From positions 23,458,142 to 23,522,141 of the forward strand of contig NC_089722.1 of NCBI RefSeq assembly GCF_035083965.1: DNA of 64,000 bases, written 5' to 3'. Positions 28,791-64,000 of the stretch are shown here, one piece after another. The stretch is from Branchiostoma lanceolatum (lineage: Eukaryota > Chordata > Leptocardii > Amphioxiformes > Branchiostomatidae). Position numbers and translations under genes: made by a program. The notes below the pieces were generated by a model. The model was not told the DNA's origin and did not search any database. It worked only from the letters and a program-made list of their open reading frames with translations. Numbering within the stretch: position 1 is the first letter of the stretch; the number at the start of each line of letters is the position of its first letter.

Positions 28791-28802
28791 CTTAATAAGA
28801 CG

Positions 28803-30479
28803 TCTGGTTAGATTAATAATGGTAGGTATGAGTGATTATGAGACCTAAAGACCAGGAGAAAATAGAAAGATTGAGGGAAAACATGTATTTGTGAAGAATA
28901 AAAGACGGTAGAGTCTACCACTATTTCAGAGCAATATAAACGATACTTGTATAACATTACACAAAGAAATAAACTTTTACAACGTAATTTACGGTCGCTT
29001 TCAAGGGACCGTCACATACATGATATGATATATTGCCATCATGACCCGCGATAGGTGCCTGGGTGTAAAATATGAGTTGACAAAAGCAAGTAGAACCTTT
29101 CTATTCGAACAGGGTACTTCATTAAGCGTTGGATGGTGTAACGCAATGATAATTGACAACAGGTTCTATAGGTGATAATGATACGAAAGAGTGGAGGCCT
29201 CATTATGGCCATTATGTTTATACACCTCAGCAGCATACCCAGTGTGATACTGACCACACCTCACCTGCGCCGTGTCGGCATTGGCCCGATTGATTTACAC
29301 ACGCGTTTTCTGTGTAAATAGTGCCATTGGCTGTGTGTAGCGTACGTGTACATTGGCATGCTGGTGTGCCATTTAATTCTATCAGTTCAGGGGAGATTTG
29401 AGCGTTATCTTTCTTTGTTCCTGGTTCGTTACACTGCGGATAAGACCAGTCGGAGACTCGTGTATCAAGTTTCATCGGCACACCAGGAGTCAGCGTGCGA
29501 CCCGCACACGTCAGGAGGCCTGATGACGTCATTCCAGACCAGGACCGCTGTGTGTTAAAACAGCTGATTGCGCTCTATGTAATGCAGGCCTCTTCAGTCA
29601 AACTTTGGAACGACGTGGTTCAGTCCAGTTTTGGGTAGCTTGCACTTGTACTAACTTAACAAAAATGGTGTTACATCTTGAGGCAGTTTACCAGCTATAT
29701 GATACAAGCAAACAAGAAAGCTAAAAAGAAACAACTCCTAAAACACATGAGTACTAGTAACAATACATTTTTAATTCCATGATTAAAACAATAACCAACC
29801 ACAAGACATCTGTATTATAAAATTTGCACATAGTTTTCAGTTGTAACAATTGCTGTAACCTTGTAGGTCACTTTGGATACAATACTAAATACAGGAGAGG
29901 TTGGGCATGTACATATAATGCACAGAAAATACATGTAGTATACGTCCACCTATGTGGGAGTCTAATACTGAGTTTGATACTGTCATTTGGTGCGCCCACC
30001 GTAACAGGCCGCTTGATAGAGCCAGTTTTTAAGTAGTTATAGTACATACCTTAGTTATTTTTGTTCTTTTTTTATATATTTGTATGTGTTGACCCTGAGG
30101 TAAACAATAAATGAATAAATAATACGTCTTGTAAAAACAGATCTTCTAAAACTGGTCACCACAGGACCAGACCCAACCTGGTGGTACCAGAGATATGTCC
30201 CAGAAGAAGTCTTCAACACACTTAGAGGGCTAGGGGTCACCATACTGTGACAGCTGGAGTCTGTACATAGTACATCCTGGAGAGAGATGTCTACAGACTG
30301 TGCTTTTTTTTTTATAATTTGACCACATTGAAATACCACCATAGCAACATGTGTAGCTTTCAATACAAAAGCTGGGTGGAAGATTTCTAAGAACATGCCA
30401 ACTTGATTTTACATAGTCATGATTTCCCCGAAGACTACAAATTCAGCTTCTGCAACAGAAAGTTTCATCACTTCAAAGT
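28803..30479. other. Intergenic region between the Penelope copy and POT1
   Basis: No exons recognised. Short frames near 29227-29558 have no domain features. The right part is 3' flank of the minus-strand POT1 gene. Confidence 0.4.
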
Positions 30480-38138: not shown

Positions 38139-41100
38139 CTAGGAGTCCTGTATCACACGGGACATCGTCTCTCCATCCTCTTTCATCGGAGGTTCGGCCG
38201 TCGGATGCAACTGACTGGTTTCCTGATAATATCGCCTCGTGTAGAAATAAAACAGGATGATAGGAAAGATGGGCAGACAGAGAAGCAGGTGAAACATGAC
38301 CAGCAGTGTCACCCAGCCTGCGCCCTTCCCCCGCACGCTGAACCAGGCGTACCCCGGCCGCCTGTACCAGGTCCCCGTACAGCACACCTCACAACACTCG
38401 CAGCACGAGGTCTCCGTACCAGCTTCTATCGACGACAAGGGATCTCTGCAATAAGAAGTGAAATATTCTGTTAATTAGTAAACTTTCGAGCGAAAATTGT
38501 AATTTCAGGCGGTCAAAAGTCCTGGGCGGACTATATCAGTCGCTTGCTGACAGAAAATCACATAATACTGAAAATTGATAATATGAGTTTGCCGCGTCCC
38601 CAATTCCCGCTAATTTGTTCGACATGTCGATAGCGGTCCTCGTGATAAAATCTAGCGTCTAATACTATGAAGCAATATAGGGTCATACAGTAGTAACTCT
38701 TGCTACGCAAGTGATCACCACTTACCTGTGTTGCAGAGTTGTGGATCCATGGTTTTGTTGAAACGTTTGAGCATCATCATCAGCCGCTGTTGTCTTAGCC
38801 TCGGCCCGAGCCTATGTAACAAGTAAAGATTTTTAACAAAATCGTGATACATGATTCTTCTTAACGATACAAAGTCAATTCGATACAATTACATGGAAAG
38901 ATTGTATATAAGGTTTAGTTTGGTGAGCCCTGTCATTTGGTTCACGATTTATCCCCTCTTTTTTCCGGCGGAGGCAAATGTAATAGGCCTTTAGTCAAAG
39001 ATGAGCAACAAAATATTCACAATAAACCCAAAAAAAATTCACAGTGCAAGTTAGTAGATACTGTATTGAGCACCTGCGTCTATTCTTCCACCACATATGG
39101 TTTTTCTATTAGCCTGTTATCCAAACCTATAGATAGGCTGTTATAGCTCCCGAGTATTCTCTGCGGAGAGGATACTCGGGAGCTATAATAGGTTTGGATA
39201 CCATGCTAGTTGACTTCGCCAAGAAGTCTATGTTTTGACGCTTGTCTGTGTGTCTGTTAGTGAACAGAATAAGTCGAGAACGCCTGGATGGATTGTTGTC
39301 GTATTTGGTGTGTTGATGTGTATGTGGGAAATCTCAAGATGATTAGATTTTGGGCGAAGTACTTTGCATAATTAACGAGAAAAGTGTAAAAATGTGTTAC
39401 ATTGTATGAGTGTATACTAGCTCCATGGGTGCCAGCTGGAACGTGTTACTTGTGTAGGGGAAGTGTTACTGGTGTAGTAAGGAGATATTCCCATTGGGTC
39501 AGGGGTGTTTGACTGTGAAGCCTGGCTGGCACAAATTGGCTTCTCACTGACTTTCAGATCTTGATCTTGTGAAATTGCACTGTTCCTCAAGGCAAGTAGT
39601 TACCTTCGCCGAGAAGGTTATGCATAAGGTAGCGTTTGTATGTATAAGAAGACCAGCATAACTCAACAATGCCTGGATGGGTTGTCTTGATATTTGGTAT
39701 GTTGGTAGGTCTTGGTGAGACCTGAAGATGATTAGATTTTGGGCCCCCTAGCGGCTTGTTAAAGTACTGCAGCGGAAATTCCTGTTTTGATATCTCATGT
39801 TTTGGATATGCTATGGAACCGACTTTTGAGTGGTAGATAGCTCTTTGGAAAGAGAGTAAAAGGTATCGGTTTGGACACCCTAGCGGCATTTTCTGGGACT
39901 GCAGTAGCAGGTTTTGCTTCAGACTGTGAAAGGGAATAACTCAAGAAGGGCTTGATGGATGGTCATGCTTTTTGCTAAGTGCACTATTAGCTTGAGTGAT
40001 GATTTACATGATTTAATACTTATTATGCAAATCAGTATCTAATTTGCATAACTAATGATGAAAATTGATACATCCTCCAAATTCCATAATAGGACTCTCA
40101 AACATGTGACATGACCGAGGAAGAGAGAAATAGTAATAAATATCAACTATGCAAATGAAGACCTCTTTTGCATAATTAATGAGAAATACTATAACTCTAT
40201 AACTTATGTGGTGCTTTGTTTGATTGGATGATAATGATGCAAATCAGATTCTAATTTGCATAATTAATGAGGCAATTTAAAAACCTGCTGTGTTCCATGA
40301 TATGACTATTCAAATATGCAAACTTGTAACTGAGGTAGATAGGAATGTTGATAGATAGAAAATATGCAAATGTAGACTAATTTCTATAATTAATGTTAAA
40401 CTGCTATAATTCCATACTAGTTAATGACGGCAATTTCATACTTGTGTCGTTTGGAAGTAGTGTGAATGTGAACACCATTGAATCAAATTATGCTAATAAG
40501 GAGCTTATTTGCATAATTGATGATAAATGTTAGCATAACCCTCTTTGTTTAGCTCATAGTCATAGTTTGGACAACTTATGTTATTTGGGTGAAGACGACC
40601 AACTGGTATGATTCATAATTGATGAGAAACACTCCCAATACGTCAGTCATAAAAGTTAAGATCATTTGGCGAAGTTATGAGGTCGTAGAACTCTTGTTAT
40701 TGATGAGAAACACTCCTAATACGTCAGTCATAAAGGTTAAAATCATTTGGCGAAGGTATGAGGTCGTGGAACTCTAGTTTTCTATCGAGTGACTTTACTT
40801 TTGGTAGAAACTCACCCTAGTTTCCTCAGCAGCCTTTGCCTGTTCCTTGAAAGCCTGAGCGAGGAAGTTTATCTCTATCTTCAAGTCTGCGTAGTTTGTC
40901 TGCAACTTCTTGAGTTCTTCATGATACTGATCGAAAGAAAAAAAAGTAAACATGACATTTGTCAAAATGTTATTGAACTTTGTCATTGAATTCGTTGAAT
41001 ACGATACACGAAACTTTGACATCGTTTCCAAATGACATTTTAACACTGATAGCTATATAGGTGACAAATTTGTCATTCAGAAAAAGATCAAACGTTACGC

Positions 41101-44100
41101 TAATGTACGTATGTAATAGTTAACTCACACTTTTATCAGTGCTGTCATCTCTATTCTTCATGTCTTGTCGAATATTCTCCAAGTGGGACTCCATCTCGTG
41201 CCTCAACTCTCCGTTCAAAGTTTTCAGGTCCTCCTTAACATTGCAAACGAGTGAAATACGTACTCATGGAAGACATTGTTTTAAACCAAGTGCCCAATAA
41301 AACGTCAAACGCAACAGAACAATGATTCTACAATCATTCAATCGACCCTCACTGGGCTAGATAATGATGAATGATCATGAAACTGTACGGTAGGCCTTTT
41401 AGTTTTGTATTTGTATCGAATTGGCCGACCTAGCAAATCCAATCTTTCCGATGATTCTGCAGATAGCTCTTTTGGTTGGCAGTAACGTTACACAGAATTG
41501 TTGGTAGGTGAAAGTGAAGATAATGATAATGGGCGGCCATAATACCATTGCCATGTTCATCTGTTGTACGTGGTCGCTGAGCTGACCGGATGTGTCGTCA
41601 CGCGTGTGCTCTTCCGCCGTCTGCTCTTTGATGTCCGTCAGCAGCTGTCTGGTCTGCAGCTGTTCTTCCAAAACCTGCTGCTGCTTGCTGTGAACCTCTT
41701 CTAGCAACCTGCGTGAACGAAGTCGAGCTTGTTCATCTTTTAAAGTCTTTAAAGTCACAACGTACAGTGGTGAATAAATATCAAACGACGCCGTCAGCGA
41801 GAGAAAAACACGGCTAAAACGCCCATGGTATTTATCCAAGATAATTTATCACACACTGTAAAGTCAGATACCTCATATGGACGGTTTGAGTACTGTACTA
41901 TATCAAACGTGACATTAGCAAACTGTCGGCAGCATTAGAGATTAAAAACCTCTCGCTAGTTTCTCATGTGCTTCACACAGTGAAACCTTCAGTAACATAT
42001 TAACAGCAATCATATGTATAGTTACATGTATACAGTATAACGTTACGCACTTGTCTGTTGTCCCCACACTCTCCTTTGTTTGTTGAGCCTCCTGTTCGCT
42101 CTTCTCCTGTACCGTCTGCTGGAAGCCCTTCAGCTGTGCCGAGATCTCGTCCTTGATCTCTCGGCGCTCCTCCTCGAGCAGACCGTCCAGCTTAGCGCGG
42201 AAGTCCTGGGCAGTGTTCGTCACGCTGAAGTTCACCAGCTCACGAACCTTGTCTACGTCAAATGATTCCTTCTGTTGGAAAAATAGCCTATCTTAGTTCC
42301 AGCACAAGTAAGGGATTTCACATTCCTTCTCTCTAAACAGTGTTGACTTCCCTCCGAACTTGAGATAGCAACATATTTGCTGATAGTGTCTTGTTGAATA
42401 AATTGATTATAGTATTCGAGTCATGGCAATTGAAAAGCTTGGCAACGGAGTAGGAAAGATATGTAGCTTTTGTCTTGTATTTGTTTAAGACAAGGGCATA
42501 TAAACCATTTATACTGATAGAGTCCTATTTGATAGCTTATATGTACATTGCAAAGGGTATTTACCGACTCGGATGTCAGTGATGCCGTGTCTACTTCTGC
42601 CTCCGTCCCGACATCTGAAGTCTTCCTTGCCGACCTGAGTCTTTTGCCGTCTGCACTTTTCTTACGACTCTTCTTCAACGTCTTGATCTGTCTCTTCAAG
42701 TCACCAATGTCCTTCAAATACCTAAAATGATAACACAGCCGGTTAAGTTTGCTGGCTTTTGTGTGTTTTTGTTGGAGGAGAAGAAAACAAGATGTACAAA
42801 TTGTGGGAAATGGATAAGCCAATAACAGAAGTAACTTGGGAATGAATTAATTAATTGATAAAGGAAGGATTGGATTGGATTGGATGGACAGAAGGAATGA
42901 AGGAGTGACGTACTTGATCAGGAGAGACTCCAAAGGGCTGTAGTTAATCTTCGGCTTGACCTTGACCTTCTTGGCATCCGAAGCGAAATCGAGCGACCTT
43001 CTTGTGTCCCTTAGCGACTTCTTAGACGGATCCACGTTTACAATGAAAGCCGTCTTTGAATTTCCCGTCAGAACCCTCTTCAGCAGCATAGTCAAACTGC
43101 TGCGCCTGAATTTGAAATCCTGGCGGTTTTTAACGGACAAATCTCGGATGACTTCTTTGAGGTGCAGGAGGGACATGTTGATGTTGGCTCCCTCACGGAG
43201 ACCCTCGGCGTCCTTGTTGACTTCGCCTGCGGTCTCACTCCCTGCCAGATCCACGAGATACAGCTCTCCCGTACGGCCTGATTCTATTCCCTCTTTGTGG
43301 AGAATGCTCACCACAACCTAGAGTGGAAAAAGAACAGTTTATAAACAACTCTTAATTCCAATATGACTTTATCAATGTGGACGCACAGCATCTTTTCTGT
43401 CATCTCGAGACAACTATATACGGCGCTAACGCTTTACTTTAATACATTTCGTACTACCAGTGACAGCCGGGAACAGACCGACTGGCAACCTAGAAAAGAT
43501 GGGTGACGACAGGAGAGACTGTGGACACCCAGGAAAGACTGGGACCCGAGGCAAACGGGCCCGCAGCCCAATCTTGCAGCCTGCTTGAAGTCTTGTAGGC
43601 ACTCAAACCATTGCACCTTTTGACATGACGGAAGAATACCCCCAGGAGCTTCCGAGAGGGGGGGCGGAAGAGAGCTCCGTTGGGACAGACCTAAGAACGA
43701 CGACTCGGACTGATCCCGGACCAACGATTCCCGGTACAACGTGTATTTGTGGTAAAACCTGCAAGAATAACAGAGGTCTTAAGATACACCAAACAAAGAT
43801 GGGGTGCTTGCAGAAACAGAGAAACCTCGATCAACGCTCGAGGCCGCGAGGCCTTGGTGAGACGGAGGAAACCCAGAGGCAGGAGGCAAACCACAGCCCT
43901 CAGGGTATCCAAGGGAGAGGTCAGCACCTAGCAGGCACCCAGGGATCCAGTCCAGTGGTGAGGGAGTCGGTTGGCCGCAGTAGTAGTGAACCTAGGGTAG
44001 AAGAGGCTGAAGAGCCGAGGAAAGGACGTGTAAAATGGCCCCAGAGCAACGCGGAAAGGCAGTGGGAGCAGTTAGATGACGATCTGGAAAGTGTTTTGGA

Positions 44101-47100
44101 AAGTGTACTAGCAGGGAGCGCAGAAAGGAAGCTTGAGGCATTCGTGAAAGTCGTGTACAACATGGGTCTGGAGAGATACGGAGAGATAGAACTAGGGAAA
44201 GGAAGACCTCAGAACAATGTACCGAACCGCAGAGAGAGAGAGAAGCAAAAGATAAAGAAAGATCTCAAGGCCTTGAAGAAGAGATGGAAGAAAGCTAGCC
44301 ATGAAGAGAGAGATGCGTTGAGTTCACTTAGAGAAGAGCTTCGTGCCAGGCTGCGTAGCCTGAGTAATGCTGAGAGAACCAGAAAGAAGAGACGTCAGAA
44401 GGAGAAAAAGCGTGCAGAGTTCGTGTCGAACCCCTTCAGATTTACAAAGAAGATACTTGGTGCCAAGACAAGTGGGAGGCTAACGTGTAGCAGGGAAGAG
44501 GTGGAGAGTTACCTGCAAAAGACGCATGGTGACACAGAGAGAGAAACACCACTGGCTGATAGACCTGCAGAAGAGTTCCCAGACCCAGAGCAACCAACTA
44601 GGGAATTCGACTGTAGCGAGCTGAAGTTAGCAGAAGTGAGAGAGGTGATTAGGAAAGCAAGGGCAGGATCGGCACCGGGACCGAGTGGAATACCCTACAG
44701 GGTGTACAAGAAGTGCCCGAAGCTTACAAAAAGGCTCTGGAGTCTCCTGAAAGTAGTATGGCGAAAGAAGAAGGTGCCGCAGGGATGGAAGAGGGCAGAG
44801 GGAGTGTTTTGCCCGAAACAGGAGAACGCTGACAGAATAGAGCAGTTTAGGACCATATCCCTCCTGTCAGTAGAGGGCAAGATATTCTTCGCGATTGTAG
44901 CTAAGAGGCTTCTGGAGTACATGATGGCCAATGCCTACATTGACACTTCCATTCAAAAAGGTGGCGTGCCTGGCTGTTCGGGATGCCTGGAACATACAAG
45001 CATACTGTCCCAACTCATCCAAGAAGCTAAAACTGGAAAGAAGGATCTAGCAGTAGTCTGGTTAGACCTGGAGAACGCCTACGGCTCTGTCCCACATCAG
45101 TTGATAAAAGTAGCACTGGAGAAGTACCATGTCCCGGCAACAATACGCCACCTGATTGAACAGTACATAGACGGGTTGAAGATTAGATTCACCGTAAATG
45201 GTCACACAACTTCCTGGCAATGCCTGCAGAAGGGCATCATTACTGGATGCACTATTTCTGTGATACTGTTCGTCACGGCTATGAATCTGTTGATGAAACC
45301 AGCTCTGTCCCAAGCTAGAGGGCCGAAGACCAACTCTGGGATAAGACAACCGCCCCTGAAAGCCTTTATGGACGATTTGACTGTGACTACGGAAAGTGTG
45401 ATCAGTGCTAAGTACATGCTCAGAAGCCTAAGCAACGCAGCCAGCTGGACACGAATGAAGTTCAAGGCCAAAAAGTGCAGGAAGCTGGTGATGCGGAAAG
45501 GGAAAGTATGTGACAGGATACAATTAGAGATCCAGGGAGAGAAAATACCAAACATAGCAGAGCAACCGATTAAAAGCCTGGGGAAAAAGTTTGATGCAAC
45601 ACTGGGTGATAAGAACAACGTGGAAGAATTCAAACAGCTAGTACGCAGAGGGCTGGAAGCCATAGAAAACAGCGAACTCCCAGCAAGATACAAAGTTTGG
45701 TGCTACCAACATGGCCTGTTACCGAGGGCAGTATGGCCAATGTCCTTGTATGAAATCCCCCTTACAGCAGTGGAGGAAGTGGAGAGGTTAGTGAGCAGAC
45801 ACTTGAGGAAGTGGTTGGGTGTGCCGCCGGCCTTAACGAATATAGGACTGTACAGCAAGTCTTCAAAACTGCAGTTACCGTTAACATCGATTGAGGAGGA
45901 ATTCAAAGTAGCAAAGGCTAGAGCCCAAGTGATGCTGCAAGAGAGTAGGGATGAGAAGATCAGTCAGGCAGGGATAAGGCTAAGATCTGGAAGGAAATGG
46001 GCAGCAGCAGAAGCAGTTTCAGAGGCAACAAGCAGACTAAGACACAAAGATATTGTCGGAGTGGTAGCCCAGGGAAGGAGAGGGCTGGGAGCAGGAAAAG
46101 AAGGTAGCCAGAGCTGGGGCAAAGCTAACCCGAGACAGAGGAGAGAGATGATCCAGAAAGAGGTTAGGCAGAGGGAGGAAGAGAACCGGAGAGCTCGAGC
46201 AGTAGGTCAAGGGGTCCAAGGTGCGTGGACAAGATGGGAGTGAGAGGAGGGTAATGTGGAAGGAACTATTGTTTAGGGAACCCCTGAAGACAAGATTCTT
46301 GCTGAAATCTGTTTACGACCTTCTGCCAACAGCTGCCAACTTGATGAGATGGGGAAAGAGAGAAGAAGACAAGTGTGAGCTCTGTGGGAAAAGAGGAAAC
46401 CTGAGCCACATCCTAACAAGTTGCCAGGTAGCACTTAGCAGAGGGCGGTACACATGGCGCCATAACCAAGTACTAAAGGCCATAGTCAGTGCAGTGGAAG
46501 AAAGGATGAAGGTCAAGGGGAGAAAACAAGGTCCGTTCATCAACTTCGTCAGGGAAGGAGAGAAAGGAAAGACTAAGGGCAAACAGAGAGAACAACTAGG
46601 AATCTTGGCGTCAGCAAGCGACTGGATGTTACAGGCTGACGTAGGAAAGCAGCTGGAATTTCCAACAGACATTGTAGCAACAAACCTAAGACCTGATTTG
46701 TTGCTTATTTCTAGGAAGACAACACAGCTGGTGATCTTGGAACTTACGGTCCCTTGGGAAGACCGGATAGAGGAGGCACATGAGAGGAAGCTAATGAAGT
46801 ATCAGGAGATTGTAAAGAGTGCCAAGGAAAAGGGGTGGAAGGCACAGTACTTCCCAGTAGAAGTAGGATGCCGTGGTTTTATAGGTCAGTCCCTGTGGAA
46901 GGCTCTGGGCGCTCTAGGAGTAGTAGGAAAGAAAAGAAGAGAAGTGACCAGAAAGATAGCAGAGACAGCCACCGACTCATCCTACTGGGTATGGCCACAG
47001 AGGTCCAAGAACTAGGAACACCCGTCGAGCAGCGCCCGGCCAGCGCTGTTGCCCCGCCGCCCGGAGGAGTACTACTTGTAGGGGCGAAACTCCGAGGAAG

Positions 47101-50100
47101 GACGGAAAGTAGCTGAAGACGACGGGAAGCAGATGACCTTCTGTATCATGTAAGTTATACGCATTCATCAACCAAATATGACTGAGACAAGCTTTGTTCG
47201 GCCATGTTGGGCAAGGCATGTCAACAGCAATGTTGTTGGACAATGATGATGAAAGGTCAACGTGGTCAACCTGCTCGGAATGTATTACTAATACATCATT
47301 TGTTCATGAAAAAGAGGTGTTTTCATTACCTGGAAGACCATATGAGACCGCGAGCTGCGTTCATTGACCTCCGTAGCTCTGCTTCTCCGCGACGCCGATG
47401 CTTCAAAGAAGACTCTGATGGCGTCCATGGCGTTGGTAATGTTGTGTTTCTCCAGATTGTTGGCGAAGAACAAACTGTTGGACGGGTCTTCTCTGATGTC
47501 CAGCGACGGGCGTTCCTTCCTTGGCACCGTCAGATCAAATACCTAGTTGAACAATCACAACAACATAGTAATTTCAAAACTAATCGTTTCGTTTTTGATA
47601 TCGGAACCGGCTCCCAACATTTCAGTTTGTAGATGCAGAAATGTTTGCGGTGGTTTTATTTCTATCCAATAGTGTAGCAGTATGTGACTTTTGCGCTGGC
47701 GCGCACTTAAAACCTCGGCGGACGCTCCATAGTACACGTGATCTGCTAATAAAAAAAGAAGAGATTGAAACATTTTCTTGACTATCCTATCCTATTCTAT
47801 ATGACACGGTAAACATATATGCTTTAGTTACCTTTTCGTTGTAGATTTCAAGGACACTGACGAAGAAGGCGATGTTCCAGTCCTGTTTCTTCTGAGACTT
47901 CAGAAACAGCTGTTTCAGTGCTCTGTAGATGATGCCTTCTGTTTTCTCGTTCAAGTCTCTGTCCGATGGTCCTGCCATGGTGTAAGTTTTCCCCGAGCCT
48001 GTTTTCCCTACAATAGACCAGGCAAAAGATTCAATTGGATTTACCTAACTCAACCACAATTTTCTTATCTCGTAACTCAAAATTTTCTTACCTTCCTAAC
48101 CCACAATGAAGTGATTTCATAGATCATTTGATGGTTTGATTAATATTTTGTAGGCTTACCATAACACAGTATGCAGCCATTGTACCCCTCCAGTACTGCG
48201 TCAACAATGGGACTGGCCATGGTGTTGTAAATCTCTGCCTGCGTGGTCTCTTCGGGGAACACTTTGTTGAAGATAAATTGTTGCACGCCATTGTTCTTTG
48301 TAGGAACGGACACCTGCAAAACGTATGATTTAGTTTTTACAACCATGTTTTAGGATTTTTTATGATTCTTGATATTTTTCACGCACAACGTGAAATTCCC
48401 TGAAATGTGATCATCAGATACACTACCACGGCCTTTAGTTATGCTATCTAGAGGGAAAGAGGGAAAATACCATAAGATAGATTAAAATGTATTTTCGAAG
48501 AATTTGACCTGCATGAGACGCGTGTCCACAGTCAGGCAGCCCTGCTCCTGCTCTTTCTCCTCTCCCCGCAAGGGGCGCACCCGGATGACCACCTGTATTC
48601 TGTCATCCTTCTGCAGCACTCCTGTCAGAAGCGACAAAAATCGATCGGTTACTGGGAACCAATTTCCATCCTCAATTCACTTTATCCCAGTGACTCATAT
48701 ATATACATGTATAGACTAGAATTGTGAAGAGAAAAGAAGCGCTATTTTTTCAATCCCAAAGTTGCGCTGCTAAACTACAGTATTTCTAAGAATTGTTTGA
48801 TCGGATAGCCATGGAAATGTGAAGTAGATACATGTGTTACAGTGCAGGCTCATATTGGCCCAATTTACACATGCGTTTTTGAGTGACACTGGAGATGACG
48901 TAGCGGTCGGATCCAAATCGACTCCAAGCAGACTCCAAGTTGATTCATTGACTTGGAATCGACTCAGAAAACGTGAAAATTGGGCCGCTATTTAGATACT
49001 ACCAGTGATCGCACTAGGTTAATTAACTATGACCACATGTGATGCACCCCTCCCCACCTGTTCCCCCCACCACCACCCTGTCCAGTTCGGTGACCAGGTC
49101 CGAGTAGTCGGCCGCCTCGCACAGCAGCAGGGAGTCCCGGAAGGCCTTGAAGGCGCGGGCACCTCTCCTGGGGAGGATCTCTAACAGCACGGACGCGCTC
49201 TGCTTGGCGTCGTTCTCAGGGTCCGTGATCTCGTCAACATCCCTGTATGGTCAATATAGGGTCATTTTCAGTCACGTGACTCTGACGTCATTTAGTGCCC
49301 GCCATGTTGATGGGTTAAAGGCACGTACTAAGTAAGAACAGTTGGTTTCATTTACTTTATCATTCATACCGTTTGCTTCTACCGCAAAAATTTGAATCAT
49401 GATCTTATAATTATACGCTTCGAATGACAGGTAGCCATATTGGATCTGTCTCTCTATGGGAAAAGGAAACAGATTAATGACAAATGAATAAACAAACTAG
49501 AGTTCTACGACTTCGTGCCTTCGCCAAATGATGTTGACCTTTACAACTGACGTATTCTAAAGGTGCAAGAGATGTCAAAACCGGAAGTGCTGCTGCAGTG
49601 TCTTATGACAACACCTACCAACATACCAAATATAATAAAGATCTATCCACAACTTCGTAAGACGTGCACGTGCTGTTCACGAATCGACCAACTCACAAAC
49701 AGATACAGACAAACACACAAACAAACACGCATCTCCAAAAGCATAACTATCTTGGCGATAGTAACGCAAACAGACCTACCTGTCGTTGATGACCCTTTCG
49801 TGCAGGAGATGGTCCAGCACGTGACCAGCCTGTAACCTCTGCACGATGTGGTCACGTGTCAGCCGCAGTCTATCCCGATGTTCGTTATCCATCTCACCAA
49901 CATCCGGGGACTCTGCGCTGTCACTGCGGGCCGACTGCGGGGCGTCATCTTCGTAAAAGCTTGATCTGTGACATGATATTTCTTTCAAATGATCTTCAGA
50001 AATATATATTGAACACTAGATCTCTTTGAAGTTACATCTAAGGCGATACCTACACAGCATAACAATAATCATGCAAATCTCCTTGTACGTGCATGTAGTG

Positions 50101-51907
50101 TGAGTCCATACATGTATTGTGCAAGATATGCACAATGTATACCACTTATTTGCTATTTCTAAAAAGTTTATTGTCATTTTATAGTTTTCAAAAATGCTGT
50201 GATGTACACAACTCTGCTCATCACTTGGTTGTGGCAAATATGTCTCATTTTCTACAGTCACCATATTTCTACTAGTCCTACTTCCTTTTTGATAGATTAA
50301 CTTTGGTTGGTGTTCGTCATATACATATTTTTGTGGCAGAGACTGTGACTGCCATTCTCGAGAAAGGCCGTTTAGCCATAGTCGATGTTGTAGGGCTGTT
50401 GTGAATTAGGATTTTACCATGGTCAGTACTGACCGACGGAGGCCATATATATATGTCATATACATATAGGATACTGTTGTGTTTGTATTCAAGGCTTTTC
50501 TGTGCGTACACTGAGCTTTGCTAAATAGTTCTGTAGTTGAAAATAGTTTATTTACTCTCCACCTGCTTCAGCTACCGTGTAATCAGCTTTTCGCACCAGG
50601 CTAGGATCTCTGCATATGGACTGTACCACCGTCATCTAACTCCAGGAGGGTGGGGATTTCATTTTGGGAGTAATAAATTACCTGGCGTTCTAAAAACAAG
50701 GAGGGAGAGCGAAAGTATTGGCGTTTCCTACATGTATGTTGTATTTCGCTCTCTTCACTTTCCAACAGCTTTTAGCGGTGTATTTGATCCCATTGCACCC
50801 ACTTCAATTCTTTTAACAAAACCGTCAAGAGCAAACATGAGCCCTTGATACACACCAATACTTTACAATAGCGGTCTCCCTGCCCCTGTAGACACAGCGG
50901 TTGTGCAACTATTTGCAATGTCATCGGTTGAAATCTGTAGTGGGCTCTTGATGGTTGAGATGGATTACAATTACAAACCCTTTCCATAAGTCATGCAATG
51001 TTCTTTTCTTCATTGTTGTTTGGTTTACGTAGACCTTGTTCCAATGTTGACATTAGTACCATAGTCTACATAACGATTGTCCCGTAAAGTAGCAGTGTAG
51101 CACACAAATGCTTCAGCAAAGTATTGATTGGTGTTGTCGCTACCAGTTCTATATTCAACGTTATACCTACTGGCCTTAGATAAGGACAACGTTTTATTCG
51201 AAGCAAAACATCACAGCTTGTTGTTCGTCATCAGGTGTAACTAACTGTATGCAATGTCAATGTATGCAAAATGTTTTCTCATGACGATCTAGTTGATAGG
51301 ACACGGAAGAAAAATGTGACATCACCATAGTAGGTACAATAAATCGACTAATCAAGAAAGATGATTGACAGCCCGTTATTTGGGAAGCCCTCGTATGAAC
51401 CAAAGTCACGAATGGCTGTTGGACCGGGACAATAACAAGGGAGAAATCAGTTATGAAGAAGTGTGTCACGGGTATCGTGTGCCGCTCGGGGTATCAAATA
51501 TAGATCACAGTCCCAGATCAGAAGTAGAATTTGGTAGTATTGCTGTCAACATATTTGCTTATTTAATAACTTTAAGACGGACTAGGTGTTATGTAGAGCC
51601 CATACAAATATTGTTCTCTTTACACGAAACAGCTAGCGCGAACCTATTTTCAGTGTATTTTTTCATGGCAAGATGAATAGAAAGTTTTTGTTTCATTGTA
51701 TTCATTCAGCTAGGTACGATATCTCAAAGTAGGACAACATTACATCTGCACTTACATTGCACAATATGACCTAATTCTTACGATCATCTACTTCACAAAT
51801 ACCACGACTACTTGACACCTGTATTCAAAAATATCTCACCTGGACTCCGTCCTCAGGCCAGCATTACTGCCGCTTGGAAGTTCTTCACAAGATGCCCGAT
51901 TATCCAT
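38139..51907 (-). CDS. CARD-kinesin motor-coiled coil-transmembrane protein (copy 1)
   Basis: Fifteen exons on the minus strand: 51840-51907 (ATG), 49780-49965, 49058-49242, 48509-48621, 48160-48313, 47832-48007, 47330-47542, 42914-43317, 42565-42721, 42051-42271, 41546-41708, 41129-41233, 40816-40926, 38726-38811, 38139-38445 (stop). Every phase joins; 882 residues. A CARD spans about 48-140 (RDRLRLTRDHIVQRL, HVLDHLLHERVINDRDVDEI, LLEILPRRGARAFKAFRDSL). The kinesin motor follows almost directly, about 154-480: IQVVIRVRPLR, P-loop GKTGSGKT (236-243), switch I NERSSRSH (354-361), switch II DLAGSE (388-393). Then K/E/Q-rich coiled coil (about 495-750), a cysteine cluster CCECCEVCC (795-803) and a hydrophobic span about 825-849 with a short tail. 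Motor with ATP/microtubule action and membrane anchoring is inferred from domains; the kinesin class is not assigned. Confidence 0.92.
39119..39200. repeat. Bulged inverted repeat in a CARD-kinesin intron
   Basis: TTATAGCTCCCGAGTAT (39141-39157) pairs with ATACTCGGGAGCTATAA (39172-39188), and outside it TATCCAAACCTA (39119-39130) pairs with TAGGTTTGGATA (39189-39200). Ten unpaired bases separate the inner and outer stems on the left only. Confidence 0.8.
39213..40778 (+). mobile_element. Two overlapping dispersed-repeat copies
   Basis: One 5' end is at 39213 (ACTTCGCCaagAAGT hairpin) and a second at 39602 (ACCTTCGCCgagAAGGT). Two 3' ends follow: GGCGAAGT at 40668-40675 with end near 40698, and GGCGAAGGT at 40749-40757 with end CTCTAG near 40776. 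Each 5' motif has an exact complementary 3' motif. The interior carries TTTGGGCCCCCTAGCGGC, ACTGCAGCGG and AT-rich AATTTGCATAATTAATGA blocks. No ORF. The terminal segment is duplicated (about 40619-40676 and 40700-40755). Confidence 0.6.
43625..46243 (+). CDS. R2-like retroelement protein: zinc finger and reverse transcriptase
   Basis: 872 residues from a true ATG. Near the N-terminus a finger of C-x-C-x3-C-x7-H type (CICGKTCKNNRGLKIHQTKM at 40-59) probably binds DNA. A basic, K/E/R-rich linker follows. The polymerase has AGSAPGPSGIPYRVYKK, a FRTISLLSVEGKIFFAIVAK motif, WLDLENAYGSVPHQLIKVAL with the first aspartate, GIITGCTISVILFVTAMNLL, and FMDDLTVTT as the catalytic pair, where most LINEs have an aromatic residue-ADD. 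The thumb and GAWTRWE end are present. The stop at 46241-46243 comes from a frame slip: the family continues straight into the zinc-knuckle/endonuclease part, found in another frame from 46221. Confidence 0.92.
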   Translation: MTEEYPQELPRGGAEESSVGTDLRTTTRTDPGPTIPGTTCICGKTCKNNRGLKIHQTKMGCLQKQRNLDQRSRPRGLGETEETQRQEANHSPQGIQGRGQHLAGTQGSSPVVRESVGRSSSEPRVEEAEEPRKGRVKWPQSNAERQWEQLDDDLESVLESVLAGSAERKLEAFVKVVYNMGLERYGEIELGKGRPQNNVPNRREREKQKIKKDLKALKKRWKKASHEERDALSSLREELRARLRSLSNAERTRKKRRQKEKKRAEFVSNPFRFTKKILGAKTSGRLTCSREEVESYLQKTHGDTERETPLADRPAEEFPDPEQPTREFDCSELKLAEVREVIRKARAGSAPGPSGIPYRVYKKCPKLTKRLWSLLKVVWRKKKVPQGWKRAEGVFCPKQENADRIEQFRTISLLSVEGKIFFAIVAKRLLEYMMANAYIDTSIQKGGVPGCSGCLEHTSILSQLIQEAKTGKKDLAVVWLDLENAYGSVPHQLIKVALEKYHVPATIRHLIEQYIDGLKIRFTVNGHTTSWQCLQKGIITGCTISVILFVTAMNLLMKPALSQARGPKTNSGIRQPPLKAFMDDLTVTTESVISAKYMLRSLSNAASWTRMKFKAKKCRKLVMRKGKVCDRIQLEIQGEKIPNIAEQPIKSLGKKFDATLGDKNNVEEFKQLVRRGLEAIENSELPARYKVWCYQHGLLPRAVWPMSLYEIPLTAVEEVERLVSRHLRKWLGVPPALTNIGLYSKSSKLQLPLTSIEEEFKVAKARAQVMLQESRDEKISQAGIRLRSGRKWAAAEAVSEATSRLRHKDIVGVVAQGRRGLGAGKEGSQSWGKANPRQRREMIQKEVRQREEENRRARAVGQGVQGAWTRWE
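46221..47015 (+). pseudogene. R2-like element C-terminal zinc knuckle and endonuclease (frameshifted)
   Basis: Continuation of the preceding protein in a +1 frame, 264 codons, starting at a GTG that is not a real initiator. It has ERRVMWKELLFREPLKTRFL, the CCHC knuckle CELCGKRGNLSHILTSC, and the PD-(D/E)XK-type nuclease TNLRPDLLLISRKTTQLVIL followed by ELTVPWEDRIEEAHERK. One inserted or lost base around 46240-46250 separates the parts, so the copy is probably inactive unless it shifts frame naturally. Confidence 0.88.
48857..48986. mobile_element. 130-bp MITE with GGCCCAATTT inverted ends
   Basis: GGCCCAATTTACACATGCGT at 48857 mirrors ACGTGAAAATTGGGCC ending at 48986. The centre has repeated CGACTCCAAG/CTTGGAATCG inverted blocks. 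A related but half-eroded copy (AGTCGACTCCAAAACGCGTG) lies at about 2190-2245 in the SLC13 copy A intron. Confidence 0.65.
49058..49965 (-). other. CARD-encoding exon pair of the kinesin gene
   Basis: Two exons (49780-49965 and 49058-49242) encode one complete CARD of about 93 residues. Typical features: helix 1-2 pattern RDRLRLTRDHIVQRLQAGHV, LDHLLHERVINDRDVDEI and the conserved end ILPRRGARAFKAFRDSLLL. The domain is bounded by introns of phases 2 and 1 on its outer sides with a phase-2 intron inside, so shuffling as a simple symmetric module is not obvious. It joins the motor exon (48509-48621) in frame with about ten linker residues. Confidence 0.88.
49498..49763 (-). mobile_element. Short reversed copy of the dispersed repeat
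   Basis: It starts at ACTAGAGTTCTACGACTTCG and ends with the hairpin ACTATCTTGGCGATAGT, i.e. 3' and 5' ends of the family with most of the interior deleted. It lies in the CARD-kinesin intron between the two CARD exons. Unlike the other copies, its 3' motif (GGCGAAGGC) does not match its 5' stem (ACTATCGCC). Confidence 0.65.
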
Positions 51908-54360: not shown

Positions 54361-57300
54361 TCATTCTTCCACGGGTAGTGGGTGGACTGAATTAGAAAGC
54401 GTACGCTGCGCACGCGCAAGACGCGCAAAACACTCGCAATGCAAGTTAGACTCGTTGTTTGAATCACTTCGAAGAACCTTTGTGTAAATGAAAAACAGGA
54501 TAATGGGGAGGATAAGCACACTTAGAACTAGGTAGAACATGACCAGAAGTGACACCCAGCCTGCTCCCTTGCCCCTCACATCGTACCACGCTCTATCTTC
54601 CTGTGAGTACCATACGCCCACACAGCATCTTTGACAGCATTCAACAGTCGAGCTAGTCACGGGCTCCTGTCCCTCTTCTATCGATATCTCTTGATTTCTG
54701 CAAGAAGACGAAAATATCTTTGTGGCTCAGAATAACAGCTAATTACATTCAATATATAGGTCTTCATAAAAGAATACATAATGCACAAATGCGCAGAAGT
54801 TGCTAAGCTAACTTTGTCACTCGCTAAATCTAAACTTTGCGAAGTTCAGATTATATTCCGTTATAACTTTCTAAATTACATTGTATCATATCTCACTGGA
54901 AAAGTAACTAGTCATTAAAAAGACCTTCCATTTATAACTGTGGCACAATTGCTGATTACGTCAGTTGGTCGCAAAAATGAAGTGCTGAAATGTCCTACCT
55001 GTTGCATTTAGTTTACATACGATGTTTGCCCCAGTTGGTATTAAACCTAACCCAGAAACAACACGTATTGCCAGTTTGTCCTTTTGGATATTCCAAAAGT
55101 CATACTCCCCTTCTTCTTTCCAGGCTCTGGCAATCTAAAAAACTACTTTTTCTTAAGAGCATAGAAATGTAATGCAATGTAATGTAATGTACGATTGTTT
55201 GGGGATTAACGAGAACAACCTGTGTTGTGAACGCCGATGGTCGTTTGTCTGCGGCTCAGGACTCTCGATCTCGACATTGACATCCGGCGATGTCGTCTTA
55301 GACAGCTGCAGAGCCTGGTGGGGACAATGATTCTTATAATGAATACAAGATTAACGATATGTACGGATATCAGAGCATGTCGGCAGAACGTAAGGTATGT
55401 AAGGTAATTAGCCTGCTATTGAGACCTATTATACATGTAGCTGCCAGGTCTCTTTTGTTCTCTTTGGTCAACGTTGCATCGGAGTAACAGCCGTTGGCAT
55501 TGCATAAGATATGTCTTAAGACACTACTAAATGAACCTATATACGAGATATTAACCTCAAATACGCGAACACGACCTTAAACGCGTACGTCCTGCCCACG
55601 TGCTGGATACCAGGTGCTTGTAAATTGGGTCATGTGAACAATGATGCGGCACTGTTAGGGTACGCCGGAGTGATTCAATACCATATCAATACATCTATTC
55701 CGGATGATTCTACATTACACAATGTCAAACCTTTAGAGACATTGCCCATGAAGCTTAAGATTGGATTTTTCTATTTTCTGACTACAATGAATAACCACAG
55801 TGAATATTATTTCCATTCAGACAAAATGATGATGAAACAGATGATTATGCGCTTTGATAATAACACATGTGATTTTCTGCAAATATACGAAAACAAATCC
55901 AGACGTAAAGAAATCGTAGCTTACGCTTTTATCCTCAGCAATCTTTGTCACAGCCTGTGCCAGACGGCTTATCTCTGTCTTCATGTCTGCGAAATTTGTT
56001 TGCAGCTTCTGAAGTTCTTCATGGTACTGCTGTGTTAAGACGGATAGAGGGCAACAAATATGTTTGTTATCCCTTACCAAGCTAAATGTAGTACTGGTCA
56101 CTGATTGATCCTTGCATAGAAAAATGTACACACACCTGTAAGGTCAGACAATAATGTAAGAAGCAGCATTGACGAGGGGTACTAGTATCATATTTACCTG
56201 CTGTGCATGGTCATCAAGTTGCTCCGTCGTGGTGTCGTCACGCGTGTGCTCTTCCACTTTCCACTCTTTGATGTCCTCTAGCATCTGTCTTGTCTGGAGT
56301 TGTTCGTCCAACATCTGCTTCTGCTTGTTGCAAATCTCCTCCAACAATCTACATGTATGATAGGTACTCATGGTAAATAAAAAGTGCAGAAATAAACAGA
56401 CCAACAGCAAGTATCCATGGAAAAGTATCTAGAACAATTCTGTGATAATGAGAACAAGAGTGGTGTTTAAAAAACACACCGGCGACGTGAGAATTGTGCA
56501 AAGAAGGTCCTCATTTGCATGATTTATATCTTACTGTGTTAATCTTCACGATACCTTCAAGTGCCACAAAGTTTTCAAGTTAAGTCTTAATTAGCATAAT
56601 TTGCCAGATCTTAGTGGTGCCCCAACGTTCAAATATCTAGACTAAGGGATAAAAGACATATGAGATATATATGTATACGTATATACTCTTGGCCGTAGTC
56701 TAAACGGCCCAGACGAGGACGAGGCGGACAAAAACGAGCCTTGCCCATTTGGAACGACTTGGGACGCGCAGGGACGGCGTCCCAAACGCTTAGCCTTAAG
56801 ACGCTTCCATTTTCACATAGGTCAGGTATTGAAGTCACGTCCACTCAGAACATTTCAGCATACTCCAAACTTAAATGAAGTATCCACCCTGATGCCACCG
56901 GGAGCGACACAGAAGCCACCGCGGGATGCAGTCAACTCCAGCCCGATCGCGTCGATCTCATAGATCTGCCCCCTCGTGGTAGGTAATTCCTTGATAAAAT
57001 TACTGTTTCATTTTACATAATTGCAACGCTTGCCAAACAGTCAATAAAAAAGCAAAGGCTCAACTTTTGTATTAGTTTGTGACAAACTATAATCGGTTGG
57101 TAACACAGCTTTGTCATAATCTATCGTGCTGTAACGTTATATACTCATACTGAGATCGATGGCATAGTCAAAGCCTGCATGTTTACATCGGTGACCGCCC
57201 TATGTTCCGAAATTACTATGTTCCGAAATCTCTATGTTTCGAAATCTCGATGTTCCGTAAGCCCTATGTTCCAGTTCACTCAAATAACAGAAGCTGTCCT

Positions 57301-60300
57301 AAGTATGCTGTTCACACACACACATACATACATACGCATAACATTCTCGACGAAGGTAATAATTCATCCCGACTCCCTACCATTTGAATTCAACTATTGG
57401 ATTTTGTAACAATAGTCATTACGTATACTCTACCTATGTTCAAAACATTAAATGTATATAGATAATTAGTTGATTCCTAAATACGTATACAAAATATAGC
57501 TACATGTTTTTTGGTCACTGGTTTGCAGTTAAAAAAACTTTTAAAGACTTTTTTTTATTAAATCCAACGATGACAATTCATTATTGACGAAAGTAATTTT
57601 CTGTATGTATAAGACCAAGTTGATTTGATTATATGAATGATATCCTCTTGGGAACCCAGCTAATGGGAGCGTGCTATTGAAAAATATTCAAAAGAAAAGT
57701 TGCTTTTATTATGAAATATATGTGGTCAGAGCACAGAGTATGGCATGCAGAAATATAGGTTCTTCATTTTGTTATTTCAAAACATATACTAGTGCAGTCT
57801 TTTTCAAGTCTGGACTTGACTTTGGCATTTGCGACATTAGTATATGTTTTCAGAAATATACATTTTTATAATTGAGAGCACGAATTCTAATTTCTCATTT
57901 CGCATCTTTTTACCATTTAAAGTATGGCCGAACTCTTTTTTTCTTCAAACGTCAAAAACTTGTGGCCTCCTTTGCAGAGTCCTTGCGGCTGTTTTCTTTT
58001 TCAAGTTACAGTTTCATCGTTACATTTCTTTTCTTCAGTTTTTAGCTATTGCTGGCCGGCCAGCGATAAGAAAAAATAATAATATGTGGTAAATAAGAAA
58101 ACGGTAACGTTAAAAAGAAAACAGTCGGAAGGAGTCTGCAACGGAGGCTACAAAAATTCATGCATTTGTGGATGTCATCCCAACCTCCTTGGTCATCCAT
58201 ATACTGTAAATGAAGAACTGTTTGCGGTGGTTTTACTTTGGCAGTGAACTTTTCAGCGCGGACCTTAGGTGACCGGGAAACGTTTTGTCCATCTAAGACT
58301 TTGGCGCTACTATTGTTTCAAACGCGAACTTAGAATAACCGCGAATACATCTACTGTTTCCCCTACTGCGAAATGAATAACCACGCAAACTTAAAACGCA
58401 TTTACAGTATTCAAATTAGCATTTAACTCAGAAAGAATTGGAAAATCTGGTACATACATCTGATGTCGATCCTACAGGGAAGGGTTAGTGAACAGTTCGT
58501 GAACTGTCCCCTGTCTGACCATACATTATACGCGTAAATAGAAGGGGGAGTAGGGTATTACAGTTTGTCCCTATAATCATAAATGCATGCATCCCTATGG
58601 AGAAGTTGACAGACATAAGGTGTGATTATCTAAGCAACCTCCGTGATCTCAGAAATCAAAGATTCTGACCAAGAAAATTACCCTCAAATCCTAACCTGTT
58701 CTGTCGACTGTTATCTAACAGAATTACGAGAACTTCTATACAGCTATTCTCCAAGGAAACACCCCCCGAGCCAGAGCCCTTGAGTCATTCCATTTGGGCC
58801 CGCTCGCGACCATTTCACTACTCTCCAAGCAGAGCTAGGGTTTCGGCTGGTTTTTAACGTGTTTTTAGGCGTTTTTGTCATGCCTTCTACTTTGTCATCG
58901 TTTTTGTTGTGTCACAGACACAACAAAAACGATGACAAAGTAGAAGGCATGACAAAAACGCCTAAAAACACGTTAAAAACCAGCCGAAACCCTAGCTCTG
59001 CTTGGAGAGTACCATTTCACTATCTCCCGGGGATCCACAAGACAAAAAGATAGAGAAAGGTAATTTTTGTCAACAAATTATACAAGAGTGAAGTCTGACC
59101 TGTCATAGCCACCCCAGATTTGCCAATACTTTACACCAAAAAAAAACAATTTCAATGTTTCAATGCCCTCTATCAGTCTACAATTTTGAGCTGGGGTGTA
59201 GGCGCCTACCCTAAAACCCTAAAACCGTAATTCACTTTATCTTCACGGTAGTAAAGATTTCACGGTGTAAGAAAGATGGACATTTTCACTGAAGTTTAAG
59301 TTCACGGTGGTGGCAAGTGATTTACAGAACGGATGTGTGAAGGAATCATAAATAATAACTACATATTTATCACTGGGATGATAAGTTCACGGTACAGAGG
59401 TGACCGTGAAAACAGCTGTGAACAAAAAGTTACAGTGAAAAAAAACAAGAATTACAGTACACTTGTCCCCACGGAAATCAGACCGAATATCCTCTTGGAC
59501 AGATTGTATACAAACGCCGCCAGAAAGAAGTGCGAGACATATTCAAAGCTTATTGAATATTAATTTTGTATTCGTTTTCAAACTAATAACATGATTCCCA
59601 GATTGCAATGTAATTTTGCAGTAAGTACCAGGGTAACGTTTATTTTTCTGTCATTTATACAATGGTGTAGCACTGCATTACAGCTGACTCCAGCAGCGGA
59701 GGGATATGTACAAACTTTCGCGTACAAGCACATGTGTGTACTCTACTTTAGTTCTACAGGAGAAAATTCATGGCGGCGGGAGGTGGGCACTGCTATCTCA
59801 GTTACTTTTATAATACTTTGCTGATGTATTTTTTACTTTGTCTATATTGAATCTTGAATATGTTATGGTTAGTTCTAATGCAGATGATGACAGATTCCTG
59901 TGAAGGTAGGCGATAGGTTTGATTTTACCGATTAGTTGAACCACGCCGTGTGTTGAATAACCAGTTTGTGGAATTTGTGCCGAATCCGTGATAGTTTGTC
60001 CAAACCGTCAACATTTAACCCGGGCATCTAGTATATGATTGAAGCCAACGTCATGTACAGCGCTGATGCTATACGCTCATACACATGTAGAAGAATATAT
60101 GAGGCTGGCTGTGATGCATTGTCTACTGTGGAATTGAATACATTTGATGTCGTGTTTGAAATTATCATACAGCCAGACACGTAGGTGACATTGTAGTGTT
60201 TTGCAATTATTATTTTGTTTTACCTTTGCCAAAATGGTTAGGTAGTTTGTGTGTTTTAGGTAGAGTTTGCATACATGTATAAGACGTGTTTTCGGCCGGC

Positions 60301-63300: not shown

Positions 63301-63911
63301 TACCTGCAAGGCGTTGCCAAAAAGTAATTCCCTAGGGAATGCGTTCGTGAAAATCCTAGAATATTTGGCAAACCGAAAGCAGTACTATACAATAGGCTCC
63401 CCCCCTGAGGCGTCGCCAAAAACACTACGCTGCGGTGCTATGTATCATATATACATTCGCAAATATTGAATTGCAAATCCTCGTGCAACCACTGATCATG
63501 AAGTCTCAGAATCAGGGCTTTGAAAGCTCATACCTATAAGACGGGGAAGCTGAAGGCAGTAGTGGATCAAACTCAGAAATAGATCTAATATCTGCGATTG
63601 TCCCTGGTAACAACAGACACTCAAGTATTTAAACCTCTTGTCCGTTAAAAATCAATCATGGCAGTAACCCCAAACGTTAACGTTACACACTTGTCCGTAG
63701 CGGTGATGGCCTCCGTTGCTTGTTGAACCTCCAAGTCGCTTTTTTCCTGTACCGTCTGCTGGAAGCCCTCCATGTGTGTAGAAATCTCGTCCTTGATCTC
63801 TCGGCACCCTTCCTCCAGCATACCGCCCAGCTTAGCTTGAAAGTCCTGTGCAGTGTTCGTCACACCGAAGTTCACCAGCTCACGAACCTTGTCCACGTCA
63901 AAGGTTTCTTT
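54361..63911 (-). CDS. CARD-kinesin paralogue, 3' part: coiled coil and transmembrane tail (copy 2)
   Basis: Five minus-strand exons, 63691-63911, 56198-56348, 55925-56026, 55220-55314 and 54361-54697 (stop), join in phase to 301 residues; the 5' part is right of the window. Each matches a copy-1 exon: VDKVRELVNFGVTNTAQDF, EQLQTRQMLEDIKE, YHEELQKLQTNFADMKTEIS, and the tail RGKGAGWVSLLVMFYLVLSV followed by LILPIILFFIYTK. A copy-1 exon (41129-41233, 35 codons) has no partner here; skipping it keeps phase. The cysteine cluster is reduced to CCQRCC. The C-terminal tail is longer and includes a CECFARLARAQR stretch. Copy 2 lies directly upstream of copy 1 in the same orientation, so they are tandem duplicates. 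CARD and motor in copy 2 are expected but unseen. Confidence 0.88.
57200..57272 (+). repeat. Minisatellite of about 17 bp in a copy-2 intron
   Basis: Four to five units of the form CTATGTTCCGAAATCT with changes. Confidence 0.8.
58201..58412. mobile_element. MITE with ATACTGTAAATG inverted ends
   Basis: ATACTGTAAATGAAGAACTG at the left mirrors AACGCATTTACAGTATT at the right, with imperfect pairing continuing through TTTGCGGTGGTT/AACCACGCAAA. A left-half relative, TGTTTGCGGTGGTTTTA, lies near 47645. Confidence 0.6.
58821..59010. mobile_element. Perfect palindromic (foldback) element
   Basis: 58820-58913 and 58917-59010 are exact reverse complements, 94 bp each, around the three bases ACA. The arm begins ACTCTCCAAGCAGAGCTAGG. 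The 12-bp string ACCATTTCACTA occurs at 58809-58820 and 59011-59022, flanking the palindrome directly. No coding capacity. It lies in the long intron of CARD-kinesin copy 2. Confidence 0.9.
59023..61637. other. Intron of CARD-kinesin copy 2, no separate gene seen
   Basis: Repeated TTCACGGT words at 59240-59410 and a segment at about 60605-60660 (GCGAAGCTGGTGTGTTACGC) resembling 36075-36095 suggest eroded small repeats. No exon with splice sites and domain similarity was found. Confidence 0.4.
61638..62060 (+). mobile_element. tRNA-derived SINE
   Basis: The head resembles a tRNA: an A-box-like AGTGTAGAGCGCGCGG (about 61657-61672) and B-box-like GGATCTAATCC (61693-61703). The body has TTGTGCCCTTGGGAAAGGCA with following CTTAACACGACTT, a central block of a kind widespread in invertebrate SINEs, and the tail is (AAAT)n at about 62041-62059. 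A short TGTAG may be a target duplication. Confidence 0.8.
62061..63690. other. Intron of CARD-kinesin copy 2, right part
   Basis: Nothing recognised apart from short non-coding frames. The next feature is the copy-2 exon ending at 63691. Confidence 0.4.
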
Positions 63912-63943
63912 CTCCTGGACAAAAAGTAATTTTAGTATAAAAA

Positions 63944-64000
63944 CTAGAGTTCCATGACCTCATGCCTTCGCCAGTTGATCATCTCTACCCAAATAACAGA
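63944..64000 (-). mobile_element. End of another dispersed-repeat copy, cut by the window
   Basis: ACTAGAGTTCCATGACCTCA then TGCCTTCGCC is the reversed 3' terminus of the family seen at 40749-40778. Confidence 0.65.

Follow-up and report, generated by a model that had tools for sequence, protein, structure and literature searches.

We have analysed a window of 64,000 nucleotides from Branchiostoma lanceolatum, and have rebuilt from its sequence a gene of 15 exons on the minus strand (51907–38139), which we refer to as CARD-kinesin. The exons join in a single frame of 2649 coding bases, i.e., 882 residues and a stop, with no internal stop codon, and GT-AG borders are found in all 14 introns (Table 1). 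The original prediction had described a phase-consistent model of 15 exons and 882 codons, and its coordinates, frame and GT-AG introns are all right. The observation is thereby confirmed. As for the two frames that the model does not use, 13 of the 15 exons have stops in both of them, and exons 5 and 14 have stops in one. The third-position G+C lies between 0.57 and 0.85 for exons 2–13 and 15, at 0.45 for exon 1 and at 0.36 for exon 14, while the G+C of the introns is 0.31–0.49.

Splice sites were ranked by percentile against all the GT or AG sites on the same strand, using leave-one-out matrices. Four sites of the model rank no better than average ones. Two of them are acceptors, at the 39th (exon 2) and 44th percentile (exon 12), and two are donors, at the 53rd (exon 9) and 49th (exon 11). 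The weakest parts of the model are residues 1–47 and exon 12. Residues 1–47 are uncertain because of the weak acceptor of exon 2, and an alternative start is available at residue 48 (codon 49892–49890, context GAGATGG), from which no further ATG is met back to the nearest in-frame genomic stop upstream. The omission of exon 12 would preserve the frame.

Table 1 Features of the CARD-kinesin gene, of its tandem copy (CK2) and of the retroelement in intron 7
Feature	Position	Strand	Content	Evidence
Exon 1	51840..51907	-	putative start codon, residues 1–22, tentative	ATG context AAAATGG; donor 99.6th percentile
Exon 2	49780..49965	-	residues 23–84: acidic/serine-rich N-terminus and first part of CARD	acceptor 39th, donor 99.8th percentile; PF00619
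Exon 3	49058..49242	-	residues 85–146, second part of CARD	acceptor 99.0th, donor 98.8th percentile; PF00619
Exon 4	48509..48621	-	start of kinesin motor, RVRP motif at 160	acceptor 93.2nd, donor 84.5th percentile; PF00225
Exon 5	48160..48313	-	motor	gene model, PF00225
Exon 6	47832..48007	-	motor, P-loop GKTGSGKT (residue 236)	gene model, PF00225, motif
Exon 7	47330..47542	-	motor, switch I NERSSRSH (residue 354)	gene model, PF00225, motif
Exon 8	42914..43317	-	motor: switch II DLAGSE (residue 388), NINMSL motif, neck linker	gene model, PF00225, motifs
Exon 9	42565..42721	-	neck and basic linker, residues 500–552	gene model; neck alignable to OSM-3
Exon 10	42051..42271	-	stalk	gene model; 84% DNA identity to paralogue over a 216-nt repeat, most of the exon
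Exon 11	41546..41708	-	stalk, heptad periodicity	gene model, periodicity test, direct repeat
Exon 12	41129..41233	-	stalk; weak acceptor, absent from paralogue model, possibly skipped	gene model
Exon 13	40816..40926	-	stalk	gene model, paralogue comparison
Exon 14	38726..38811	-	variable linker	gene model, paralogue comparison
Exon 15	38139..38445	-	Cys cluster CCECCEVCC, conserved AWxxVRGKGAGWV block, membrane span, 33-residue end, stop	gene model, paralogue, structure prediction
Non-LTR retroelement	43589..47015	+	antisense within intron 7, not in the product	RVT_1 E 7.5e-22, zf-RVT E 3.5e-06, two ORFs
CK2 counterpart of exon 10	63691..63914	-		protein search, frame, direct repeat
CK2 counterpart of exon 11	56198..56348	-		protein search, frame, direct repeat
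CK2 counterpart of exon 13	55925..56029	-		protein search, frame
CK2 counterpart of exon 14	55220..55314	-		frame and splice sites; not found by tblastn
CK2 counterpart of exon 15	54361..54697	-	Cys cluster, membrane span, stop	protein search, frame, direct repeat

The retroelement in intron 7 is presumably of the R2/HERO kind. That the CARD-kinesin gene is itself a part of this element was ruled out, as the element lies on the opposite strand inside the intron. Several other features are found in the window. Exons similar to those of an SLC13-type sodium:sulfate/citrate transporter are scattered over 6393–6719, 12041–12352 and 16224–16583 (+), each of them under its Pfam cut-off, and a LIM domain exon, which we take to be LMO-like, lies at 24566–24850 (-, E 1.3e-10). 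A reverse-transcriptase-like ORF (8012–9109, +) and a GIY-YIG-like ORF (28142–28807, -) are both weak and below the Pfam cut-off, and they are perhaps Penelope-like elements. The zf-RVT domain of another retroelement is located at 20755–21240 (-, E 8.6e-08). In addition, there is a perfect 95-nt inverted repeat with its arms 3 nt apart (58819–59011), which may be left over from a mobile element or stem from the assembly. No Rfam match at gathering score was obtained anywhere in the window.

The original prediction had further placed a CARD at about residues 48–140 and, at about 154–480, a kinesin motor with P-loop, switch I and switch II. Pfam and the motif patterns bear out all of these, including the significant CARD profile match on which the prediction had been staked beforehand. 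In the full protein, PF00619 (CARD) matches residues 54–125 at E 7.5e-11, its 42.3 bits exceeding the cut-off of 23.9, and a 100-residue CARD piece reaches 48.8 bits. PF16739 (CARD_2), whose match extends to residue 136, scores 25.8 in the full protein, which is below its cut-off of 28.2, and 32.5 on the 100-residue piece, which is above it. Eight controls made from this piece, one by reversal and seven by shuffling, yielded no CARD-family match (0/8), and a chance origin of the match was rejected; three of the eight gave one weak match each to some other family (E 0.11–0.17).

Among solved structures, 22 distinct sequences match the CARD at E up to 1. Two of the 22 fall below E 0.001, i.e., a designed protein (1.2e-06) and RAIDD (3.2e-05), the latter being the nearest natural solved relative. 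The weaker matches include CARD9 and ICEBERG (E 0.014–0.029) as well as APAF1, caspase-9, CARD11 and BCL10 (E 0.16–0.96). MAVS, for which a CARD structure exists in the PDB, is not named among the 22 sequences.

The motor is covered by Pfam PF00225 (kinesin) at residues 160–483 over the full length of the profile (positions 1–327 of 327), with 313.7 bits against a cut-off of 29.3 (E 1.6e-93). According to the patterns known for kinesins (P-loop, NxxSSRSH and DLAGSE for the switches, and neck linker), the motor motifs are intact, with the neck linker at residue 480 and the others as given in Table 1. Against solved structures, 157 distinct sequences match the motor at E up to 0.001. Within the best 60 of these 157, KIF4 (203.7 bits) and KIF3B (188.8), which are N-terminal-motor kinesins, come first and are followed by KIF11, KIF15 and CENP-E; none of these 60 rows is named kinesin-13, and a few are labelled just 'kinesin-like protein'. 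With the neck included, OSM-3 (kinesin-2) rises to 185.2 bits and is aligned through the neck sequence KPKINYSPLESLLIKYLKDIGDLKRQI. Judged from these matches, the motor is an ordinary kinesin core, the order of its nearest relatives being a ranking by bit score and not a family assignment from a tree.

One stretch of the motor differs from the alignable kinesins. At the place where KIF4, KIF3B and OSM-3 have YRDSKLTR, the alignments give FRRSSLTM in CARD-kinesin. The YRDSKLTR stretch makes microtubule contacts, and therefore the microtubule affinity may be altered; the replacement may weaken the binding.

According to the splice signals, the frame and the missing start codon of the motor, the CARD and the motor are probably joined in one protein. 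The junction is made by a donor at the 98.8th percentile of GT sites (exon 3) and an acceptor at the 93.2nd percentile of AG sites (exon 4). Upstream of exon 4, its frame runs back to a TGA at 48679 without passing an ATG, and the first Met within the exon is residue 183, past the RVRP motif. The motor therefore needs an upstream coding exon, and a separate motor gene starting in exon 4 was rejected. Moreover, the end of the CARD falls, as we take it, just ahead of the usual start of N-terminal-motor kinesins, as expected if CARD exons had joined the 5' end of a kinesin gene.

Behind the motor, a basic linker (500–552) is followed by a charged helical stalk, a cysteine cluster, a block conserved in the paralogue and a hydrophobic span. 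A coiled coil, a cysteine cluster and a 25-residue hydrophobic span near the C-terminus had been read here at first sight. The cluster is there, with six cysteines in nine residues (795–803), and so is the span, at about 825–849 with 33 residues C-terminal of it. The coiled coil is supported in one of the five segments tested with 2000 shuffles: heptad periodicity stands out at residues 626–680 (p ~0.01), but not at 500–530 (p 0.15), 553–625 (p 0.94), 681–760 (p 0.37) or over the whole of 553–760 (p 0.09). From the number and place of the cysteines, our guess is that they may be palmitoylated.

The hydropathy mean over 19 residues is highest at 828–846 (2.67), and in the full protein no 19-residue window with a value above 1.6 starts outside about 802–860. 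For the tails of the two copies in the window, AlphaFold2 predicts one long helix over the span (ORF residues 52–89, i.e., about 823–860 of the protein). The mean pLDDT of this model is 56.5; ten-residue blocks over the membrane helix reach 77, 89 and 89, while the remainder is poor. No Pfam family matches the stalk and tail above its cut-off. Two weak Pfam matches (E 0.016 and 0.95) were attributed to chance, and the single solved-structure match of the stalk and tail was rejected at E 0.48.

By searching the model protein against the window, we have found a second copy of the tail, CK2, at 63914–54361. It is placed upstream of CARD-kinesin, likewise on the minus strand, in a head-to-tail arrangement. 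Its five exons form one open frame, with intron phases matching those of CARD-kinesin, and no counterpart of exon 12 occurs in the CK2 model. Three families of direct repeats of 60 nt or longer connect the two copies, over exons 10, 11 and 15, and they overrun the exon edges by 15 nt at exon 10 and by 12 nt at exon 11. Given a tail copy with matching phases, CARD-kinesin is, as far as the window tells, one gene of a small tandem family.

We have then compared the stalk and membrane tail exons of the two copies, i.e., exons 10, 11, 13, 14 and 15, since the upstream part of CK2, with its CARD and motor if it has them, would lie beyond position 64000. The alignment spans 288 codons and has 57% identical residues, a dS of 0.94, a dN of 0.34 and a dN/dS of about 0.37. 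In all five exons dN is lower than dS, the ratios being 0.26 (exon 10), 0.17 (exon 11), 0.34 (exon 13), 0.47 (exon 14) and 0.50 (exon 15). Purifying selection thus seems to act on the stalk and membrane tail. Exon 15, with the highest ratio, is the least constrained of the five, and its VRGKGAGWV block is invariant between both copies.

Overall, the domain order of CARD, motor, helical stalk, cysteine cluster and membrane span is supported by the profile matches, the intact motor motifs, the splice and frame evidence and the paralogue that keeps the tail, and the architecture is probably real. What appears to be new is the combination, while both the CARD and the kinesin families are already known. 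CARD-kinesin shares with the kinesin superfamily (nearest solved members: the kinesin-4 KIF4 and the kinesin-2 KIF3B and OSM-3) a complete motor with P-loop, switches I and II and neck linker. It differs from them in the CARD ahead of the motor, the cysteine-rich membrane tail and the altered YRDSKLTR stretch.

On the CARD side, MAVS and CARD19/BinCARD have an N-terminal CARD and a C-terminal membrane anchor and thus the same layout with the CARD first and the anchor last, but to our knowledge they have no motor. The analogy to MAVS had been drawn already in the original prediction. It stands for the layout, as the C-terminal span at 825–849 is predicted to be one helix, and fails for the sequence, in which RAIDD is the nearest natural relative and MAVS goes unnamed among the 22 matches. 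CARD9 and CARD11 (CARMA) resemble CARD-kinesin in having a CARD and then a helical stalk, with weak solved-structure matches (E 0.014 to 0.27); we know of no kinesin motor and no membrane span in them.

A kinesin with a C-terminal membrane span does have a precedent. According to the available text of two reports, Dictyostelium Kif9 is a kinesin-13 anchored in the nuclear envelope (PMC11816917, PMC12539209). Its motor is internal, it carries an SxIP motif, and its transmembrane span of about 23 residues is C-terminal (PMC11816917). The membrane span at the C-terminus is common to both proteins. On the other hand, Kif9 is an internal-motor kinesin-13 with SxIP, and a CARD is not mentioned in the available text (PMC11816917).

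Lancelets themselves offer another comparison. In the accessible part of PMC12373286, the CARD/HINT architectures of AIG1 proteins are described as unique to amphioxus among animals. These CARD-AIG1-HINT proteins resemble CARD-kinesin in that a CARD is combined with an enzyme domain to which it is not related, in a lineage where new domain combinations abound (PMC12373286), and they differ in the partner, which is AIG1 (a GTPase family) rather than a cytoskeletal motor. Section 9 of the same source, as far as available, reports an enrichment of two GO terms, kinesin complex and microtubule, among the Branchiostoma belcheri genes that are present or absent between individuals; death-domain and other immune families are found there too (PMC12373286). 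This link is a lead only, because the kinesins concerned are not specified in that part of the source.

No CARD-kinesin was named in the titles and abstract openings listed for this subject from 5.39 million open-access papers. Within this scope, the statement of the original prediction that no described protein of this order is known was not contradicted. The word 'kinesin' does not occur in the main texts, as available, of PMC2575513 (on shuffled amphioxus immune genes), PMC6526094 and PMC11747288. With the motor part of exon 8 as the query, nine pattern-matching stretches were obtained from viral contigs and none was confirmed as a relative. The alignment of the tails likewise gave 55 stretches from viral contigs and 47 from prokaryote genome contigs, with none confirmed in either. 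Since these collections hold no animal genomes, such results say nothing on the distribution of the gene.

Considering the protein as a whole, the best explanation of its layout is a membrane-bound kinesin that would be recruited or clustered through its CARD, for which we estimate a probability of about 50%. The tail would sit in the membrane of an organelle or vesicle and hold the motor there, leaving both motor and CARD in the cytosol. The CARD could then pair with a CARD from a complex of the caspase, Apaf-1 or BCL10 type, and the assembly of CARD with CARD would cluster several weakly dimerising motors. In this way, a membrane carrying a signalling complex may be gathered or moved on microtubules only once the complex has formed. 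We infer that CARD-kinesin would carry, or be switched by, a CARD complex. Against this explanation stand the FRRSSLTM stretch, the heptads confined to one of five segments, the four average splice sites, the two of 22 solved CARD matches below E 0.001 and the dN/dS of 0.50 for exon 15.

A bolder form of the same idea, which we put forward tentatively, is a motor-driven signalosome, i.e., a tandem family of membrane-anchored CARD-kinesins whose motors would be switched on and clustered by the CARD polymerisation that a death or immune complex brings about. Such a family would perhaps belong among the variable immune genes of lancelets. The assembly of a signalling platform and its transport would then be coded by a single polypeptide.

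Alternatively, the CARD of the same protein might serve the motor itself, either by regulating it or by bringing about oligomerisation (e.g., as a head-proximal domain for autoinhibition or dimerisation), and have no part in immune or death signalling. We consider this somewhat doubtful. The motor match begins at 160, soon after the CARD match has ended (at 125 for PF00619 or 136 for PF16739), so that the two are close enough to touch; moreover, most of the stalk is without clear heptads, and thus an extra self-association domain would be useful. The CARD, however, scores 42.3 bits against 23.9, as a working signalling CARD would, and such a score is compatible with a regulatory role too.

It is unlikely that the protein serves as a microtubule tether rather than as a transporter, holding a CARD-bearing membrane on microtubules and stepping poorly, in a layout like that of Dictyostelium Kif9. 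The replaced residues of YRDSKLTR, with their role in microtubule contacts, would fit a tether, and so would the C-terminal membrane span, which Kif9 has in the available text of PMC11816917. But the nucleotide motifs and the neck linker are intact, and Kif9, by the same text (PMC11816917), is an internal-motor kinesin-13, a name absent from the best 60 of the 157 solved motor matches.

Very unlikely is a pair of genes in place of one, in which exons 1–3 would make a separate CARD-only transcript and the kinesin would start elsewhere. Reading through the donor of exon 3 (49058–49023, -) adds 11 residues and then a stop, so that retention of the intron would give a CARD-only protein, and a CARD-only isoform is possible. 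However, exon 4 offers no in-frame ATG before the upstream stop, and seven candidate ATG-donor pairs lying wholly within intron 3 have donors at the 20th–84th percentile, compared with 98.8 for exon 3. Signals of the AATAAA or ATTAAA type are absent from introns 2–5 as well; they occur four times in intron 1, once each in introns 6, 7 and 13, and four times in the 640 bases past the last exon. The least probable of all is a duplicate that is young, dispensable or in decay and lacks a stable function, a reading which would agree with the tandem copies, with the 4-kb intron holding a retroelement and with the lancelet immune-type genes often present or absent between individuals (available text of PMC12373286), but which is opposed by a model of 2649 bases free of internal stops and frameshifts and by the tail dN/dS of about 0.37 at a dS of 0.94 (for the tail only).

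Studies of how death-fold complexes arrive at the right membrane and gather at one site have usually dealt with adaptors and motors as separate molecules. One protein that combines a CARD with a microtubule motor and a membrane anchor would provide a direct and testable link from signalling assembly to transport, and the interest of CARD-kinesin rests on its function being directly testable. Such a protein would also show the possible reach of domain shuffling in an animal immune-gene repertoire.
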